Shown piece after piece: positions 5,956 through 59,985 of a DNA stretch of 64,000 nucleotides. This stretch comes from Siphonodentalium dalli. Lineage: Eukaryota; Mollusca; Scaphopoda; Gadilida; Siphonodentaliidae. The notes beneath the pieces are model-generated. The model ran no database searches, had not been told where the DNA came from, and saw nothing but the letters and a program-made list of their open reading frames with translations. The position numbers were made by a program, and so were the translations under genes. The DNA is taken from positions 155,428,875 to 155,492,874 of the forward strand of contig CP136062.1 in NCBI GenBank assembly GCA_032622095.1, given 5' to 3'. How positions within the stretch are numbered: the stretch's first letter is position 1; the number at the start of each line of letters is the position of its first letter.

Positions 5956-8900
5956 GTTGGTACCGTTAATTTATTTTATTGTTTAAAGATTCGAATGGGC
6001 ACCTAATTAGTACCTAAGGTAATTTCCAGATAATATCAATATCAAATATAACCAGAACGCGCCACATGGCTTTTTGTCTCTGGAAGTTACATAATTATAA
6101 TACATAAGACATGACTTTGTTCAGGAAATTGAACGGCACCGATCTCCAGTACCGGGGCTGTATACAAATCATATATTCCTTTCTTCAAATCGTCCATTGA
6201 TGAACTCGCGACTACAAAACAAGGTAAACTGTTCATGTTAGAAATTACACGTGAAAAACATATTTACGGATATCCTTTTTTAAGTATGTCCCTTGTAATT
6301 TGAGTTCATGTCCTCGGTTCCGTTTGTAATCAGCGAATACAAAATATTAACACCGGTCCGTGTTATACAAACCGTTCTGATATATAGAAACCTCGATAAA
6401 ATCGCCCCTAAGTCGTCTATTATTCATATATTTGAGTTTTACGATGCGTAAACCAGACATAAGAATAAACGCGATGTGTTGCATCCCAAAGGGATAATTA
6501 CACTCACTTCATTTGCTGTAGTATTTTCCCCATCGATATCCAAATATTAAATGCTTTTAAATAGGGTAATTATATTGGTATGGGAATGGACGTTGCATAT
6601 TAAATTTCGCTATGACAACGCAAGACGTCGCGGCAACGTCACTACAAAGTTCCCAATATTTAACAATAGTTCACATTTAATCTATGTGTGTATATAAGTG
6701 TATTACGGGTTGATAGTTTTCACTAAAATAACTATAATTATTAATCGACGTATCATAACAAAATGACAGATTGAATGGCATTTATCGTGTCCGACCAAAA
6801 ACTGTTCGCAATATACAGATATGGTAAATGGACCAATATCATATCAATTAGCCAGGCTGCTTAACAAAAGGTAAACAAATGTACGACAGATTATAAGACA
6901 TCGCTATCGCGACGAGCACTGACGGAAATCGTTATTGTATGCTGTAACCCTTGCTACACTAAAGCATCATTGAATAGTTGTGATCCCAAATGAAATGTTC
7001 AGACAATAAGCTCAACAAACGACCATTGTCTTTGTTGAACTTATTATCTGGACGGTTCCCTCAACAAATAGGGCTCCTTCTGCTATATTATGTATCTGTC
7101 GTCTGTTTTTATCACATAACATGCCTCCAAACAAATAATAGACTATTCCAACATACCGTCGTGCGTGCAAGTGAGTTAATTGTGGTCCTAAATATTCACA
7201 TAGGTTCATATTGAACTAATTTGATTATGACATAATCCCATAGAGAGCTTATACGGTTATTATATGTCGCGTCGATGAAAAAGTGACAAAAGAATTCCAA
7301 TATGGGCTTATTTATTATTGAAAGAGTCCCATAATGGACTGTTTTAAAACCCGCTTATATGTCCACATAGAGCATACATTGAGCCTATTTCGCACACAAA
7401 AACAAGCCCGTTATAAGCTTATTTTCACGAGAACAGGCTGATTATTCATATGTACACTTTCCAACTGACTATGAAAATCCATTTAGTATAGCAAGAGTTA
7501 ATGCCCCTCACCCAAAGTTAACTTAGTTAAGTATAAAATATTGGAAACGTTTACAACATAGCTGTGACATTGACAGATAATTTTCCCGAGAATACGAAGC
7601 CGGTATATTATTACGTCATGAATTATCAACCAACATGTATCATACCTCCTTCCAAATTATGTTGACAGAATTTGGAATCTCGAATGAGTCATTTGAGGAC
7701 TTAAAATATTTGTCAAATTTTACTCTTCAGGTACCAAATCGCTTCTATAATAATAAATAATTTCAGAAATCAAATAAATCATTACATACATTATTGTTTT
7801 GGCCATATGAGAGGAAGCTTCATTAATTTTGTGTCACAATGTTGATTTTATGATTTATTACATAGCACAGCCCCATATATTGCAATGAAGAATAAACCAG
7901 CCACATTTAGGCCAATACATTATTGCGGATCACCGCCTAACGATATATTAAGACATGTCTCCTCAGACCTTAAAATATATCTAGTAGTAATTTTAAATTC
8001 CTAGGCAAATATTTTGACAAGAACATTACAATAAAATTGAAAATGTCGACAAAAAAGCTTGGAAACACGGAAGATTTCTAACACAGTGTTTTTGGCAAAA
8101 AAAAAGCTTGGCATCACAAATTATTAACACCGATATGGAGAATAACAGTGTCGGTAAGATGATGTCATGTTTTATATTGCTTGCTACTATTTCCAGTTCC
8201 GCCTTTTCTAGCTATGCCTCTGCTGTAACAGTGCTGTTCACAATTGGTATTCTGAAATTCGATTTGTTGTTTGCATTGATTCATTCGCTATATTCCAGAA
8301 GATGATGACGATAACATCAAACAGGTGTCTGTCATGTTAAATGGAGAACAAGTATGGCAATGCTTTAACGAGGAACTAACACATCAGGTATGATCTAATC
8401 CATACCACGGACATTTTGCTCCTATTCACTGTCTAAAATATATTTCATGCTAGAAATTAAATATAATGACGGCCGGTACGACTATATATATCTCGAGTTT
8501 TAAATTAAAGATGTATTCATGTTTCCAAACCACCCGTAACTGGCATGGGGCGACAAATGTGTTTACTTAAAGTACACATTTCAAAGATAACATATAGCAT
8601 ATAATTTTTTTATCAGTCGATGTATTCGCCTACAATTACAATACTTAAGTTAAGAAATACGTTATGATTACATATATAATAAAGCTGAGTGTAAAATTTT
8701 CAAGAGTGGAATTGTGGTTTTAACCACGAGTCTTTTGGCGAGTTTTTAAAACCACAATTCCACTCGTGGTGACAATGTGGTAATGATGGTCCTATATTTG
8801 AGGGGCACACTTACTCAATTTAAGATATTACGGAAGTAGTGGCACGGGTTACTGTTTATTTAGCAAGTGTCTAAACTCGAGGGAAATGTGCGGCCCAAGC

Positions 8901-16159: not shown

Positions 16160-19100
16160 GAAAATTTCGGGACCGGATGACTCGGAACTTTAACCAGGAC
16201 AGGCGTGTTGGGACCCTAAAGGGACGGGACAGTAATTCTAGCTGGACCCGGGCCGTGGCTATTAATCTAACCGCGGGCGGGACAAATCGGTACCCTAACC
16301 CTAACCGGGGCGGGACGCGACTCTAACATTAACTGGGACGCGACCTTAGGCCTAACCCTAACCGGGACGGCATCTTAACCCTAACACTGAACAGGACGAC
16401 GCGGTATCCTAACCCTGACCGGACGGGACTATAAGTTGTATGTGGGTGTTCGGAACGGATTGTAACTTAACCATAACCGAACCTGGGCCCTACCCCGGAG
16501 CGAAACGGTGCGGGACCCCAACCTTAACCCAGACTGGACGAGACCGTAATTCTAGCTGGACCGTGACTCATAGTTCTAACCGCGGACGGAACAAGTCGGG
16601 ATCCTAACCGGGGCGGGACGAAACCCTAACTCTAACCGGGACGGGAAATAAAGCATAAACATAACCCTAACGGCAGCTTAACTCTAAGACTGAACAGGCC
16701 TAGTCCGACCGGACGGGACCATAACCTTTATGTTGGGGTCGGAGTGACTGTAACTTTAACCCTAACCGGATCGGGGCCCTATCCAGGAACTGAACGGGGC
16801 GGGGCCGTAAGCCAGGCAGGACGGGACCTTGACCCAACCCTGACGGGACATTAACACTGGCTACACCAATAACCCTAAACCTAAACGGCACTGGACGGCT
16901 CTGAACGGGAATTTAACCCTAGCCCTAACCGAGACGGGACCATGACGCTAACCGTTAGGGGAACCCAATACTAACCGGGACGTGACCACTGACCCTAACC
17001 TATTCGGGACGGGAGCTTAACCCTAACTCTAACCGGGACGGTTGGAACCTAACACTAACAATACTCGTAACCTGATGGTGGATCCGGATGGTCCGTACAT
17101 CGGACGGGACGAGCCGGGACCATAACAAGGAAGAGACGGGACCATAGGACGGTACCCTATCTCTAACCGGAACCCTAACCCTACCCCGGGGCGGAAGTCA
17201 GGGGAGGGACGTTAAAACTAATCATAACCATAACCGGGACGGCACCAGTCGGGGGCAATAACAATAACTGAAAAGAGGCCTTAAGCCTAACCACAAAGGG
17301 GACGGGACCTAAACCTTAATACGGACCAGAACGGGAGGTTAACATAACTACAACCGGGACTGGTGCTAAACCCTAACCCGTACCGAACGGGCGGGATTCT
17401 AATTTGGATGTGGTGGTTCGGAACGGTACTGTAACATAATCATGTCGGGGGTCTGACACGGAAATTAATTGGGCGGGACCCAAACACTAACAGGGCGGGG
17501 CCTATGCCCAACCCTGACCGTGACGGGACCTCAACCCTTGGCAAAACCATAACCCAAACCCTAAAGGGACTGGACGGTTCGGGCGGGAACTTAAACACAA
17601 CACAACTAACCTGGTCAGGGCCCTATCACTAACCGGTACGGAGCCTTAAACATAACCTTGGCGGGAGTTTAACCCTATCTGGTACGGGATGTTACTACAG
17701 TACTAACTGACAACAATCGTTACCTGGCGGGTAAACCCGACCTCGGACGGGACGAATCGGGACCCTAACCAGGACGGCACCCTAATATAACCTTTAACTG
17801 AACGTAACTGGTTGGAACGGGACCTTAACACTAAACGTAACCATAAAACCTGACGTTAACACTAACCATAACCGGGACTGTACGGCTCTGGGCTGGAATT
17901 TCATAATAACCATAACTGGGACGGGACCAGTCGGGACCCTAACACTAACCTGGACTGGACCTTTGTCCGATTCCTAACTCGAACTTGGACGGGACCTTGA
18001 GCCTAACCCATAACCGGGAAGGGACGGGACCACAACAAGGGCGGTATCCTAACAGTAGCAATAACTGGACGGATTGGAACGGGACCTTAACCCTAACCAT
18101 TACCCTAAACCGGGACCAGTGTCATGGGACGTCCGGGACGTTAACACTAACCTTAACGATAACCCTAACCGGGACTGGACGGCTCTGAACTGGAAATTCA
18201 CCAGAACCTGACTGCGACGAGACCAGTCGGATTCCTAACACTAACCGGGACTCGACCTTAGAGCCATATCCCTAACTCTAACTTGGACGAAACATTGAAC
18301 CTAACCTTAACCGGGACGGGAGCTTAACCCTGACAATAACCGGGGAGGTACCCCAAGATGGACGTGGCGGGATGGGACCATAACTCTAACCCTAACCGGA
18401 CGGGACGAGTCGGGAAACTAACCCGGGATGGAGAGAGACACTAACCCTACCAGAGTATGACCCTAACCATAACTGTGACTGGACGGCTCGGGAATGTAAA
18501 TTAGGCCTAACACTAACCCTAACTGGGACGGACCCTACCACTAACCGAAACGTTACGGTACCTTAAACCAACACCCAACTCAAACCGTGGCGGATGGGGC
18601 TGGACCTTAAGCCTAACCTAATTATGAGTGGACCCTGACTCGAACCGCGACATGGTCTTAACCTTATCTCTAACCGGAAGGGGACCGTAACACTATCCGA
18701 GATGTGACGGGACCGTAAACCGAGCCCTAACTCTAAGCGGGACTCGACATTAAAACTAACTCTAGCTAATCCGGGGAGGATGGGACCCAACCCTAATCGG
18801 GACGGAACCGTAACCCTAATTCTAACAGGTACGGGACTCTAACCCTTACAGGACGGGATGTAAACCTTAACCCTAACTGGTACTTGACCTTAAACCTAAC
18901 TCTAAGCCGAACCGTGTAGGGACGGGCCCTTAACCATAACTCTAACCGGGGCGGGACCTTTAGGTTCCCCTACCCAACCGCGGCGGTGTGTGCCGGCCCT
19001 TAATCCTACACTAATCCGAATGCCAGCGAGAGGACATTAAACCTATCTCTAATCCGAATCGGGGCGGGACGGGACCTTAACACTACCCATAACCGGGACG

Positions 19101-44152: not shown

Positions 44153-47100
44153 GTTGGTACCGTTAATTTATTTTGATTGTTTCAAGATTCGAATGGGTAC
44201 CTAATTAGTACCTAAGGTAATTTCCAGATAATATCAATGTCAAATATAACCAGAACGAGCCACTGGCTTTTTGTCTCTGGAAGTTACATAATTATAATAC
44301 ATAATACATAACTTTGTTCAGCAAATTGAACGGCACCGATCTCCAGTACCGGGGCTGTATTCAAATCATATATTCCTTTCTTCAAATCGTCCATTGATGA
44401 ACTCGCGACTACAAAACCAGGTAAACTGTTCATGTTAGAAATTACACGTGAAAAACATATTTACGGATATCCTTTTTTAAGTATGTCCCTTGTAATTTGA
44501 GTTCATGTCCTCTGTTCCGTTTGTAATCAGCGAATACAAAATAATAACACCGGTCCGTGTTATACAAACCGTTCTGATATATAGAAACCTCGATAAAATC
44601 GCCCCTAAATCGTATATTATTCATATATTTGAGTTTTACGATGCGTAAACCAGGCATAATAATAAACGCGATGTGTTGCATCCCAAAGGGATAATTACAC
44701 TCACTTCATTTGCTGTAGTATTTTCCCCATCGATATCCAAATATTAAATGCTTTTAAATAGGGTAATTATATTGGTATGGGAATGGACGTTGCATATTAA
44801 ATTTCGCCATGACAACGCAAGGCGTCGCGGCAACGTCACTACAAAGTTCCCAATATTTAACAATAGTTCACAGTTAATCTATGTGTGTATATATAGAATA
44901 CACCCATAGTAGCCGAGAATAACAAATTTTCACCACGAGTGGTATTGTGGTTTTAACCACGAGCCTTTGGCGAGTGGTTAAAACCACAATACCACGAGTG
45001 GTGAAATTTTTTTATTCTCGGCTACTATGGGTGTATTTTGCTTATACCATAATTATTATTCTTTAGTCGCTTCGTAAATGTATTTACTGGTATTGCTACT
45101 TTGTTGTTAAAATGCAGTGACCCAAATATTCGAAGCTACCAGGAATGTGGGACACGCGTAGCAATACATACTTCAAGGTCATTCCGTGATCCGCCACTTT
45201 CTGGGGCATCAATCAACTGATATGAATACACATTCAGATTTCAATCATTGAAGATAACAGTAACAATCTATGTTTGATTTAAATGGCTGTATTTTAATAT
45301 ATTAATGACATCAAAACAATATCCAATTTTGAATAAATCTTTGAATGAATCTAACACATGAACTATTTTTTTGTTGGGAACAAAGTTGGAGTCAGTTAAA
45401 ATCCAACGTGGGAAATTCGAACATTAAAATGCACTGTTTTCATTCACTTCCTGGCAAATGGATATTTAAATTGTCAATCTGTATGTGGTTGTTGCTGAAC
45501 AAAGAAGATAAACTTCTCCCAACTGTTGACGGAATGTCAAAGTCGCGCATGTTTACGTTGACAGTTTTCGAATTTTGTGTGCAGGAAAGCACATTGCAAG
45601 ATGCAGTTTCGTTGGGTTGCACATTTTCGCTTCTTGTTGTGACTATTGAACTTTCTTGGATTGGAACTATGTCCATGGAGTGATTGGAATTACTTGACCG
45701 TGGATTAGACTTAGAGTTGTTTCCGGAGGTAAGTGTTGACATTGTGCTGCTCAATAGGAGTGAACACCTTTCCCTTTCCTTTTCACCTGATGTTGAATAA
45801 TTGTTTATACTGGCCAAATTTTTATGCCCAGTAATTGCGGCTATATCAATAGGCGCCACATCATTTTCACGAAGCTTTTGCACAAGGTGTTTTCGAGCGC
45901 TCGTATTTGTCAATCTTTTATTTTCGTCGAGACCACCTTGTTTCGCCATGACCGACATCAATGTTGAAAGTTTATTCACTCCAACTTTTTGGCGCTTAAA
46001 CCACATATCGGCAGGGTGTTCAACTGGTGTTGTACGAGGCGCGATGTAAAATGGATCCTCTGATCCATTCCATCCAGATGGCCGTTTACTGGCATACAAC
46101 ATGTATATGTAGACTGGGTTACGTTCATCGGTTTCTTCTGTGCTGTACATTTTTGGTGCAGTTTCGCGCACGTTTCTAATATCCGCGCCTGTCCTGGTTT
46201 TCGTCTGTCTCTCATTCAACTGGAGATACTGTTTTCCATCATTTGTTGTTGTCAGCATCGCGTCACCCCACTGCAAATTGTAATGCTCCTGCACTCCCCG
46301 TAAACCAAACTGCACAGTGTTATTGAACCAAAGTGTATTCAGAATAGAAATTGGCGTTTTTTCTCCAAGAATTTTCTTTTCGTACAATAGGTCTATCTCA
46401 TAGTCACAGATTGGTTCCGCTTTCTTTGGCTTATTTCCTTTGCCACACCTTTTAAACTGCTTTTGTTTAGCGATTAATGCCCTACGTGATGTTTCGAAAG
46501 AGTCATCCTGCTTGTTCATCACTGAGGTGCCATACTTGTGCCGCTTTAAATATCGATCAAAACTAGAAATTTGTCCTCTTAGTGAACTGGGCTCGAAATC
46601 AGTTCCATCTTTCCGCCGAACACTCAGAATGTACTTTGCAATTAGGGGGTCAAGCTCGATTACCGGTATCTCATGAATTTCTCTTGATTCCGACTGTGCA
46701 GCTAGAAATACCTTTAATAGTCGAATGTCAGTCATAGATTGTTTCAGTGTGTGCTTGCTTTGCTGGTCTGTGATGAAACTTTCTACACTGTCACTGTTCA
46801 ATTCAGCAAATCTCTGTGCATCATTAGGCATACTATTTGGATAGTTATGTGGAGGTGTATCTGCCTCAGCTGGCTCATTGATCACAGGACTGGTGTCTGC
46901 ATCCATTCCCATGCCATGTTCACTGTCTGCTGATTCTTCATTGTGATCATTGTGATTGTCAAATTCACCTGTACTTTCTAAATCCAAGCTATCATTGGAA
47001 TTATCATTCATTTCTGTGGTAAAATTCTGCATTAGTTCATGGTCATTAAAGATGTCGTCTAAATCACTTGCACAAGTAAAGCCTCCGAACATTTTAACAA

Positions 47101-50100
47101 ATATAATAGCAAATTGTTGTTGTAAAATTGTAAGCAGTCGTTCGCTTTAAAAACACGGACGCAGACGAACATGTGCGTTTGTTTTTGTTTACATTCTCAA
47201 CAGAGGTCACCGACCTAGATAAACGATTTTGACTCAGTCGGTGCAGCTGGATAAAACATCGTTAAACTAACTTTAAACTGTCATTTTTCGACAAGTAAAC
47301 ACTAGTATATGGAATTGTGTATTATATATCTATGTATTCAGACCACTCATCGCATTTAAGAGCGTTTTGGATTCGAAAAAATGTGTATTTACTTCGCGAA
47401 GCGGGCGTGACGAAAAATTGGGCCAAATATCGACAGCGAGGTCGCCAAAGGTCAACTGCGGTGTAGTTCTACTGTGGGTATAAAGCTTAACCCACGAAGT
47501 GCCGTTGAAATATTTACACAACAGTAAAAATTTACACCAATAGTACGAATCTTTATACCCACAGTAGGGTGTAAAGATGAAATTTACAAAATAGGTGTTA
47601 TACACACAATAGCATAGCCAATTATGGTATAAATAAGTGTATTACGGGTTGATAGTTTTCACTAAAATAACTATAATTATTAATCGACGTATCATAACAA
47701 AATGACAGATTTAATGGCATTTATCGTGTCCGACCAAAAACTGTTCGCAATATACAGATATGGTAAATGGACCAATATCATAGCAATTAGCCAGGCTGCT
47801 TAACAAGAGGTAAACAAATGTACGACATATTATAAGACATCACCATCGCGACGAGCACTGACCGAAATCGTGATTGTATGATGTAACCCTTGCTACACTA
47901 AAGCATCATTGAATAGTTGTGATCCCAAATGAAATGTTCAGACAATAAGCTCAACAAACGACCATTGTCTTTGTTGAACTTATTATCTAGACGGTTCCCT
48001 CAACAAATAGGTCTCCTTCTGCTATATTATGTATCTGTCGTCTGCTTTTATCACATAACATGCCTCCAAACAAATAATAGACTATTCCAACATACCGTCG
48101 TGCGTGCGAGTGGGTTAATTTTGGTCCTAAATATTCACATAGGTTCATATTGAACTAATTTGATGATGACATAATCCCATAGAGAGCTTATACGGTTATT
48201 ATATGTCGCGTCGATGAAAGAGTGACAAAAGAATTCCAATATGGGCTTATTTATTATTGAAAGAGTCCCATAATGGACTATTTTAGAACGCGCTTATATG
48301 TCCATATAGAGCATATATTGAGCCTATTTCGCACACAAAAACAAGCCCGTTATAAGCTTATTTTTCACGAGAACAGGCTGACTATTCATATGTACACTTT
48401 TCAACTGACTATGAAAATCCATTTAGTATAGCAAGAGTTAATGCCCCTCACCCAAAGTTAACTTAGTTAAGTATAAAATATTGGGAACGTTTACAACATA
48501 GCTGTGACATTGACAGATAATTTTCCCGAGAATACGAAGCCGGTATATTATTACGTCATGAATTATCAACCAACATGTATCATACCTCCTTCCAAATTAT
48601 GTTGACATAATTTGGAATCTCGAATGAGTCATTTGAGGACTTAAAATATTTGTCAAATTTTACTCTTCAGGTACCAAATCGCTTCTATAATAATATATAA
48701 TTTCAGAAATCAAATAAATCATTACATACATTATTGTTTTGGCCGTATGAGAGGAAGCTTCATTAATTTTGTGTCACACTGTTGATTATATGATTTATTA
48801 CATAGCACAGCCCCATATATTGCAATGAAGAATAAACCAGCCACATTTAGGCCAATACATTATTGCAGGATCACCGCCTAACGATATATTAAGACATGTC
48901 TCCTCAGACCTTAAAATATATCTAGTAGTAATTTTAATTTCCTAGGCAAATATTTTGACAAGAACATTACAATAACATTGAAAATGTCGACAAAAAAGCT
49001 TGGAAACACGGAAGATTTCTAACACAGTGTTTTTGGCCAAAAAAAAGAAGCTTGGCATCACAAATTATTAACATCGATATGGAGAATAACAGTGTCGGTA
49101 AGATGATGTCATGTTTTATATTGCTTGCTAATATTTCCAGTTCCGCTTTTTCTAGCTATGCTCCTGCTGTAACAGTGCTGCTCACAATTGGTATTCTGAA
49201 ATTCGATTTGTTGTTTGCATTGTTTCATTCGCTATATTCCAGAAGATGATGACGATAACATCAAACAGGTGTCTGTCATGTTAAATGGAGAACAAGTCTG
49301 GCAATGCTTTAACGAGGAACTAACAAACCAGGTATGATCTAATCCATACCACGGACATTTTGCTCCTATTCACTGTCTAAAATATATTTCATGCTAGAAA
49401 TTAAATATAATGACGGCCGGTACGACTATATATATCTCAAGTTTGAAATTAATGATGTATTCATGTTTCCAAACCACCCGTAACTGACATGGGGCTACAA
49501 ATGTATTTACTTAAATTACACATTTCAAAGATAACATATAGCAGATAATTTGTTTTTCAGTCGATGTATTCGCCTAGAATTACAATACTTAAGTTAAGAA
49601 ATACGTTAGGATTACATATAGAATAAAGCTGAGTGTAAAATTTTCAAGAGTGGAATTGTGGTTTTAACCACGAGTCTTTTGGCGAGTTTTTAAAACCACA
49701 ATTCCACTCGTGGTGACAATGTGGTACTGAGGGTGCTATATTCGAGGGGCACACTTACTCAATTTAAGATATTACGGAAGTAGTGGCACGGGTTACTGTT
49801 TATTTAGCAAGTGTCTAAACTCGAGGGAAATGTGCGGCCCAAGCAGCCCAACATATTTCTTGATTTATTTTAATTGTGATTTTGCGAAATAGTGAATTGG
49901 CATATACTAATAAATGACGCTTCCGCGTGCATCGTCTTGGTCGCTGCGGGACTTTCAACTCTTCCCAAAACCAGGATCTTTGTTTGTAATGTATGTCATT
50001 AAGTGCCTATTCGGGGTTCCAGTTACAACAACAACAATAACAGCATCCAACCTATGATTCATGGAAAAATGTTATTAAAAAGTTGATGTACATGATACAA

Positions 50101-57169: not shown

Positions 57170-59985
57170 TCAGGAAAATTTCGGGACCGTATGAACTTTA
57201 ACCAGGACGGGCGTGTTGGGACCCTAAAGGGACGGGACAGTAATTCTAGCTGGACCCGGGCCGTGGCTATTAATCTAACCGCGGGCGGGACAAATCGGTA
57301 CCCTAACCCTAACCGGGGTGGGACGCGACTCTAACATTAACTGGGACGGGACCTTAGGCCTAACCCTAACCGGGACGGCAGCTTAACCCTAACACTGAAC
57401 AGGACGACGCGGTATCCTAACCCTGACCGGACGGGACCATAAGTTGTATGTGGGTGTTCGGAACGGATTGTAACTTAACCATAACCGGACCAGGGCCCTA
57501 CACCGGAGCGGAACGGTGCGGGACCCCAACCTTAACCCAGACTGGACGTGACCGTAATTCTAGCTGGACCGTGACTCATAGTTCTAACCGCGGACGGAAC
57601 AATTCGAGATCATAACCGGGGCGGGACGAAACCCTAACTCTAACCGGGACGGGAAATAAAGCATAAACATAACCCTAACGGCAGCTTAACTCTAAGACTG
57701 AACAGGCCTAGTCCGGCCGGACGGGACCATAACCTTTATGTTGGGGTAGGAGGGACTGTAACTTTAACCCTAACCGGATCGGGGCCCTATCCAGGAACTG
57801 AACGGGGCGGGGCCCTAAGCCAGGCAGGACGGGACCTTGACCCAACCCTGACGGGACATTAACACTGGCTACACCAATAACCCTAAACCTAAACGGCACT
57901 GGAAGGCTCTGAACGGGAATTTAACCCTAGCCCTAACCGAGACGGGACCATAACGCTAACCGTTAGGGGAACCCAACACTAACCGGGACGGGACCCCTGA
58001 CCCTAACCTATTCGGGACGGGAGCTTAACCCTAACTCTAACCGGGACGGTTGGAACCTAACACTAACAATACTCGTAACCTGATGGTGGATCCGGATGGT
58101 CCGTACATCGGACGGGGCGAGCCGGGACCATAACAAGGAAGAGACGGGACCACAGGACGGTACCCTAACTCTAACCGGAACCCTAACCCTACCCCGGGGC
58201 GGAAGTCAGGGGAAGGACGTTAATACAAATCATAAGTTCATAACCATAATCGGGACGGGACCAGTCGGGGCAATAACAATAACTGAAACGAGGCCTTAAG
58301 CCTAACCACAAAGGGGACGGGACCTAAACCATAATACGGACCAGAACGGGAGGTTAACATAACTACAACCGGGACTGGTGCTAAATCCTAACCCGTACCG
58401 GACGGGCGGGATTCTAATTTGGATGTGGTGGTTCGGAACGGTACTGTAACTTTAAACATACTCATGTCGGGGGTCTAACACGGAAATGAAGTGGGCGGGA
58501 CCCAAACACTAACAGGACGGGGCCTATGCCCCAACCGTGACCGTGACGGGACACCAACCCTTGGCACAACTATAACCCAAACCCTAAAGGGACTGGACGG
58601 TTCGGGCGGGAACTTAAACACAACACAACTAACCTGGACAGGGCTCTATCACTAACCGGTACGGAGCCTTAAACATAACCTTGGCGGGAGTTTACCCCTA
58701 TCTGGGACGGGAAGTTACTACAGTAATAACTGACAACAATCGTTACCTGGCGGGTAATCCCGACCGCGGACGGGACGAATCGGGACCCTAACCAGGACGG
58801 CACCCTAACCTTTAACTGAACGTAACTGGTTGGAACGGGACCTTAACACTAACCGTAACAATAAAACGGGACGCGGCCAGGGGACCTGACGTTAACACTA
58901 GCCATAACCGGGACTGTGCGGCTCTGGACCGGAATATCACAATAACCATAACTGGGACGGGACCAGTCGGGACCCTAACACTAACCGGGACTGGACCTTT
59001 GCCCGATTCCTAACTCGAACTTGGACGGGACCTTGAGCCTAACCCATAACCGGGAAGGGACGGGACCACAACAAGGGCGGTATCCTAACAGTAGCCAGAA
59101 CTGGACGGATTGGAACGGGACCTTAACCCTAACACATTACCCTAAACCGTGACCAGTGTCATGGGACGCCCGGGACGTTAACACTAACCATAACGACAAC
59201 CCTAACCGGTAATGGACGGCTCTGAACGTGAAATTCACCGTGGCGGGATGGGACTGGACCTTAAGCCTAACCTAATTGTGAGTGGACCCTGACCCGAACC
59301 GAGACAGGGTCTTAGCCTTAGCTCTAACCGGGAGGACACCGTAACACTATCCGAGATTTGACGGGAGCGTAAACCGAGCCCTAACTCTAAGCGGGACTCG
59401 ACATTAAAACTAACTCTAGCTAATCCGGGGAGGATGGGACCTAACCCTAATCTGGACGGAACCGTAACCCTAATTATAATAGGTACGGGACTCAAACCCT
59501 AACAGGACGGGATGTAAACCTTAACCCTAATTGGTACTGGACCTTAAACCTAACTCTAAGCCGAACCGGGTATGGACGGGCCCTTAACCATAACTCTAAC
59601 CGGGACGGGACCTTTAGGTTCCCCTACCCAACCGCGGCGGGTGTGTGCCGGCCCTTAATCCTACTCTAATCCGAATGCCAGCGGGAGGACATTAAACCTA
59701 TCTCTAATCCTAATCGGGGCAGGATGGGACCTTAACACTACCCATAACCGGGACGGGACTGGACCCACACACTGACCGTAATCGGCACGGGACGATAAGG
59801 TCCGTGACCGGACCCTAGTATAACAGGGATAGATCGAGATGGGACCTTTACACTATAGCACTAATCCTAAACGGGGCAGGACGGGGCTGGATCCTAACCC
59901 TAACTGGGACGGGACCCTAACCATAACCGGGATGGGACAGCGGGGGCGGGTAGTGACGGTAACGGGGCGCGCGGGCGAAGCAAAT
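57170..59985 (+). repeat. Large degenerate telomere-word satellite, copy B
   Basis: Counterpart of 16,160-19,330 and collinear with it for most of its length, so the two arrays have not been reshuffled since they separated. A stretch of roughly 370 bp of copy A (about 18,207-18,590) is missing at about 59,237, and small blocks differ elsewhere. Confidence 0.9.

Follow-up and report, generated by a model that had tools for sequence, protein, structure and literature searches.

Cryptons are DNA transposons that carry a single tyrosine recombinase (YR) gene of the DUF3504 type and occur with non-autonomous deletion derivatives (CryptonA, in excerpts of PMC3212892). In the same excerpts (Kojima & Jurka 2011), no terminal repeats were found for animal Cryptons, and fungal and oomycete Cryptons have 4-6-bp terminal direct repeats; short direct repeats are also the Crypton mark in the excerpted curation guide (PMC8969392). 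Crypton recombinases gave rise to the conserved vertebrate genes ZMYM2/3/4, QRICH1, KCTD1 and KIAA1958 (PMC3212892, excerpts). Neither the mode of movement of animal Cryptons nor even the position of their ends has so far been clear. The closest described ends belong to another enzyme class: excerpts of PMC3627910 and PMC4067079 give Helitron2/Helentron and DINE-1 elements, which depend on a RepHel protein (HUH plus helicase), the layout met below, with smaller hairpins. Oyster genomes are rich in elements of this type (PMC8268682, excerpts). Here we describe, in the scaphopod Siphonodentalium dalli (assembly of 2.23 Gb in 9 contigs), a 2,742-bp element within a 64,000-nucleotide stretch of contig CP136062.1, referred to as the window. 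It combines an ordinary enzyme class with unusual ends: the single YR gene is that of a Crypton, and unlike Cryptons the element has precise borders, 12-13-bp subterminal inverted repeats (IRs) and, at the 3′ end, a long hairpin.

We regard the element as a Crypton variant, with a Helentron-type carrier as a live rival, and consider it probable that it is an autonomous transposon moved by its YR through a joined circle, the hairpin serving as a structured end signal. No description of a Crypton with such ends was found among the titles and abstracts listed in searches of the open-access literature, which is not a claim of absence from print; the excerpts of PMC10294476, on bivalve transposons, do not mention Crypton. 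The YR gene is on the minus strand, so that the left end of the element is its 3′ end in YR sense. A slash in target sequences marks the insertion point.

44891-47632, minus strand: whole element, 2,742 bp, YR-sense 5′-TTATACC...TTCTATAT-3′ (six empty copies; borders common to other genomic copies; seven sites fit insertion without duplication, four of them exactly)
44891-44896, plus strand: left terminus ATATAG, the 3′ end TTCTATAT-3′ in YR sense (ATATA exact at 17/20 sites)
44897-45037, no strand assigned: terminal hairpin with 69-nt arms, 3-nt loop and two tandem G.A internal mismatches (fold, comparison with the S2 subfamily, comparable geometry in two further YR families)
45042-45054, plus strand: inner copy of the 13-bp inverted repeat TTATACCATAATT, the 3′ subterminal repeat in YR sense
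45440-47092, minus strand: 550-aa YR open reading frame (ORF; DUF3504 match, conserved catalytic residues)
47469 (minus), 47531 (plus), 47552 (plus) and 47597 (plus), spanning 47469-47612: subterminal motif copies TTTAYACCCAYAGTAG, partly ~21-bp iterons
47598-47603, plus strand: TTATAC, inverted partner of the first six YR-sense 5′ bases, which could make a small 5′ hairpin
47620-47632, minus strand: 13-bp inverted repeat, exact right border and YR-sense 5′ terminus
6690-6698, plus strand: empty site in copy A of the surrounding duplication, TAT/ATA between 6693 and 6694 (filled/empty comparison)

The window together with 100 kb on either side (264 kb) consists of a segmental duplication repeated in tandem, the main blocks being ~94-99% identical. 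The insertion site was found seven times in this region, six times empty and once filled with the 2,742-bp insert. The two copies compared in a preliminary description of the window, A and B, are two of these seven, and the insert reported there as missing from copy A is likewise missing from five more tandem copies nearby. Excision from A rather than insertion in B is ruled out, as six of seven tandem copies are empty. The filled copy differs from its nearest empty relative at only 3 of 960 flanking bases, and the window insertion is therefore young. Recent activity, proposed earlier, is supported by the single filled copy among seven and by an open 550-aa frame in the window copy and two others.

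Filled and empty sequences were compared at seven sites; at those other than the window array, the partner lacking the insert is a related repeat copy, not an allele. An exact join with no gain or loss was seen at four: the window array, a copy nested in another copy (L055), C1_270 and C3_45. One base is missing near the joint of C1_106, and C4_114 and C8_18 (the latter compared with neighbouring satellite units) agree in length but have mismatches next to the joint. Beyond its first A, the left ATATA of the element is missing from the empty counterparts of C1_270 and C3_45, which rules out an ATA target-site duplication (TSD). The preliminary description had set the element at 44894-47635, with a 3-bp ATA shared by both borders that might recur at other empty sites. 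Both borders are real; the ATA was over-read as an overlap or duplication. Because the left ATATA is absent from the C1_270 and C3_45 targets, the 3-bp overlap in the window is a coincidence of element end and target, and the element is better written 44,891-47,632.

Insertion thus occurs without target duplication, at loose TAT/AWA sites. Across 20 sites with both ends read, the preference is T (14/20) A (18/20) T (13/20) / A (18/20) W (19/20), with T at +8 in 16/20; in YR sense the 5′ flank is T at 18/20 sites and the 3′ flank is A at 13, T at 4 and G at 3. The left joint shows the ATATA of the element's own left end, ATATAGAATAC (exact at 17 of 20), and the right joint shows target sequence. 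Since a staggered two-strand exchange followed by repair should give mixtures of ATATA and target at the left joint, a one-strand exchange of the kind known from integrons is a real possibility. In a further reading on these lines, which we hold to be possible and rather doubtful, animal Cryptons would use a folded DNA hairpin resembling attC: the YR would recognise the shape of the ~145-nt terminal hairpin on one strand and transfer that strand with no second exchange. The shape would consist of a ~40-bp outer stem, a 2x2 mismatch, a 21-23-bp inner stem, a G.A-rich mismatch and a tiny loop. Such a system would explain why the left joint carries the element's ATATA rather than a target mixture and would, to our knowledge, have no eukaryotic precedent as a single-strand YR transposition system. 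The excerpted accounts of integron attC/IntI (PMC2727003, PMC4792948) share with the element a YR, a structure-conserved and sequence-variable hairpin, stem imperfections and a possible one-strand exchange; they concern bacteria, whereas the present hairpin belongs to the end of an autonomous transposon, and the likeness to attC is one of analogy.

The YR is the only long ORF in the 2,742 bp, which hold no reverse transcriptase or DDE transposase, and the single intact 550-aa frame claimed for the element is confirmed at 45440-47092 (minus strand). It matches the Pfam profiles DUF3504 (PF12012; E 6.9e-27) and, weakly, Phage_integrase; GCR1_C is absent among its Pfam matches up to E 1. A sequence match in the PDB is QRICH1 (E 1.8e-07). 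The search gave 185 homologues, 120 of them listed, with named relatives mainly from bivalves, plus cnidarians and one gastropod. In an alignment of the YR with 24 homologues, R265, K298, R400, H423 and Y432 fall in conserved columns. The element thus has residues of the R-(K)-HxxR-H-Y type and a DUF3504-related YR without GCR1_C, as in Cryptons; where these have no inverted repeats and, in fungi, short terminal direct repeats, it has a 13-bp IR, a hairpin and no constant direct repeat. The open 550-aa frame is kept in two of the six other full-length copies.

At the ends, the two 13-bp repeats (45042-45054 and 47620-47632) are exact, with the right copy at the border as described before. As element ends they differ: the right copy is terminal, and the left copy lies internal to the hairpin. 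The hairpin (44897-45037; fold z = -19) is the sole palindrome above the scan threshold in 264 kb and ends 6 bp short of the terminus. With up to 4 mismatches allowed, the TTTAYACCCAYAGTAG motif matches the element seven times, against a Markov mean of 1.1 (maximum 4) and 0-3 in window controls, and the iterons are also seen at other genomic right ends. The putative small 5′ hairpin is weak (-3.2 kcal/mol for 36 nt), and longer stretches prefer another optimum fold.

Copies of the element elsewhere were taken from the best 40 of 2,193 candidates in a DNA search of the 2.23-Gb genome. The longest span element position 1-3 to 2740-2742, so that the common borders anticipated in the preliminary description are found in dispersed full-length copies. 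C7_149 starts at element position 98 and has a shortened hairpin. A non-autonomous form joins ~1-381 to 2223-2742, losing the YR gene and keeping both ends. Left ends read ...ATATAGAATACACCC... and right ends finish on AATTATGGTATAA. Hairpin arms at a common border were present in 26 of the 28 left ends read, in agreement with the earlier assignment of the hairpin as the left end; the exceptions are C4_140, which has no arm match, and N_C5_160, which was mis-parsed, and some of the 28 duplicate one insertion (C2_28.54/C2_28.45 and C1_269/C1_270, for example). Because dispersed full-length and YR-less copies have both borders in common, the hairpin is part of the element itself. The distance from left arm to inner repeat is 87-148 bp, except for one of 507 bp that holds another repeat.

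The preliminary description had also raised the alternative of two unrelated nested elements, with a palindromic repeat inserted by chance beside a recombinase element. In favour of this, the tandem unit contains a diverged hairpin core that has no ORF (8694-8772); the common border, the non-autonomous copies that keep both ends and the hairpins at the corresponding place in other YR families speak against it. The alternative is extremely improbable, an independent nested palindrome being ruled out by the 26 of 28 left ends with arms. The ORF-less core lies at 8694-8772 and 49638-49716 in the window and recurs with every tandem unit, seven times in all in the 264 kb; it is probably a relic of an older end. 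Separately, L056:147-700 is a non-autonomous copy with another palindromic repeat inserted in its hairpin loop.

A genome-wide protein search with the YR gave at least 83 matches, with the best 79 of 2,084 candidates scored, and ends were read for two copies each of two other families, whose YRs are 63% and ~49% (49% and 48%) identical to that of the element. The 63% family carries the S2 hairpin and a 12-bp subterminal repeat, TTATACCATGAC, at both ends; the ~49% family has the 12-bp repeat TTATCCACCGCT at both ends and a hairpin of unrelated sequence. All three families carry a 12-13-bp repeat at their 5′ end in YR sense; the inverse of this repeat precedes a hairpin of ~141-146 nt with an internal mismatch after ~40 pairs, which is followed by the 3′ end TTCTATAT, the 3′ repeat lying 151, 152 and 156 nt from the terminus. 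Fold z was -24.4 (63% family) and -21.2 (~49% family), for one copy each and 100 mononucleotide shuffles. The YR frames of all four copies are free of internal stops. Judged from these sequences, ends and recombinase have diverged together in the three families, and the distinct YR transposon family suggested earlier is a fair description if understood as a Crypton variant. Further YR families at 41-46% identity are present in the genome.

The same layout is that of published Helentron/DINE-1 and Helitron2 elements (excerpts of PMC4067079 and PMC3627910), and the main rival explanation is accordingly a Helentron/Helitron2-like rolling-circle element that captured a Crypton YR long ago and is moved by RepHel in trans, with the YR as cargo or helper. 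Both share the 13-bp subterminal IRs, the 5′ one terminal with a nested short IR and the 3′ one upstream of the stem-loop, as well as a 5′ T, tandem repeats and the lack of a TSD (in most described elements); the 12-15-bp subterminal IRs, 3′ stem-loop and absence of TSD typical of Helentrons are all found here, hairpin size aside. The full-length element, however, encodes a YR alone and no RepHel, three YR families (to ~49% identity) each have their own matching ends, and the four other-family copies keep stop-free YR frames, which cargo would not need. The 69-nt arms, about tenfold longer, far exceed the 5-10-bp palindromes of HINEs (PMC4067079, excerpts), and the target is mostly T/A in YR sense, not TT. 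We therefore judge this explanation unlikely. The S2 copy of one array unit (L119+L120) is a ~908-bp non-autonomous element; in tblastn the unit showed no match to the YR (best E 0.21), and ORFs of at least 120 codons in it were judged by eye only, without a RepHel profile.

The hairpin of subfamily S2 has a different stem sequence and is again nearly fully paired. Covariation was assessed in 16 near-full-length hairpins (10 S1-like, 6 S2), shortened ones being left out. Pairing was 95.2% of 875 cells against 86.1 in shuffled sets, two-sided changes occurred in 81 cells against 34.4, and the covariation score was 0.240 against 0.096 (0/500 shuffles as high; at most 0.048 when slid). Tandem GA/GA mismatches stand at identical places in nearly all S1 and S2 rows, which speaks against simple arm-to-arm homogenisation. 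Together, the alignments argue that the shape of the hairpin, and not its sequence, has been kept across related families. Compensatory changes in end hairpins have been reported, in the excerpts at hand, for one Helitron2 pair.

Lying ~400 bp 3′ of the YR stop codon, the hairpin could instead function in RNA, helping to stabilise, process or terminate the YR transcript at its 3′ end, and not as a DNA end signal. YR-less derivatives nevertheless keep it, the G.A mismatches are found on the antisense strand relative to the YR mRNA, changes of the one-sided G-U type are scarce next to two-sided ones, and the hairpin stops only 6 bp short of the terminus. This reading is improbable. The internal mismatches are kept, and the antisense strand folds better in 23/29 non-independent rows, by at most 3.7 kcal/mol, a difference too small to argue from.

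Returning to the Crypton-type transposon as the favoured reading, the YR would join both ends into a circle (joint AATTATGGTATAA to ATATAGAATAC) and recombine this joint with a TAT/A-like target. The inverted repeats and iterons would serve as YR binding sites, while the hairpin, in extruded or single-stranded form, would mark or activate the 3′ end. Several points weigh against it. We infer the circular intermediate from genomic joints alone, and neither circle nor activity was observed. A Helentron would equally be expected to lack a TSD, to end in a 3′ hairpin and to show subterminal repeats and head-to-tail copies. ORF change among recent copies is approximately neutral (14 nonsynonymous and 4 synonymous codons against the closest copy), and T397 takes the place of the first HxxR histidine in the six S1 copies inspected. 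Catalytic decay of the window copy, which T397 might suggest, was rejected, since the residue is common to these six; T at this position also occurs in 4 of the 24 other aligned rows. As to the hairpin, two measures do not rise above the shuffled sets: pairs with two-sided change number 16/55 against 15.1 in shuffled sets (180/500 as high), further pair types 23 against 25.7, and most of the covariation signal is one S1/S2 split between two clades.

IS200/IS605 elements also combine subterminal hairpins with joined ends, and have an HUH Y1 transposase and small palindromes. The element resembles them in its subterminal hairpin, joined ends and lack of TSD, and differs from them in enzyme and palindrome size. 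Their terminal hairpins and lack of TSD are noted in the excerpts of PMC3627910. A hairpin geometry that outlives its sequence in three YR families, within a Helentron-like layout, is either a striking convergence of two unrelated enzyme classes or a sign of a non-bacterial YR mechanism acting on folded DNA. The exact ends, predicted circle joint, target rule and natural deletion substrates make the reaction testable.

The predicted 30-bp joint of right end to left end has 15 genomic matches at up to 3 mismatches, three of them exact, and its reversed control has none. Thirteen of the 15 were fetched: 11 align upstream to the right end of the element, L107 starts at the joint and L112 is known by its terminal motif alone, as is a fourteenth joint, L080. 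Joint partners are often from different subfamilies, and at least some joints therefore probably arise since element ends serve as targets. The head-to-tail joints fit a circle and are no proof of one. In L126, near 590, a 3′ end of the ~49% family directly adjoins the apparent 5′ end of another copy (TTATCCACCGCTCA), so that a second family may also have formed a head-to-tail joint. Near 575 in L122 and L124, 63%-family copies are followed by (T or G)TATACCC, like the 5′ end TTATACC of the element and perhaps an end-mimicking target.

Outside the scaphopod, L001 (2258-2519), a contig that was assembled with a symbiont of Bathymodiolus brooksi and probably stems from the mussel host, holds a decayed YR and, about 200 bp downstream of it, a very strong palindrome (z -20.7). 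Homology of this end was rejected, as arm similarity is not above shuffles (148/1000 reach it), leaving only the large palindrome comparable; L002, a weak prokaryotic match, was dropped. Within the duplicated unit of the window, 16222-16803 and 57230-57815 are short tandem arrays rich in CTAACCC / CCGGGACGG units, a telomere-like motif.

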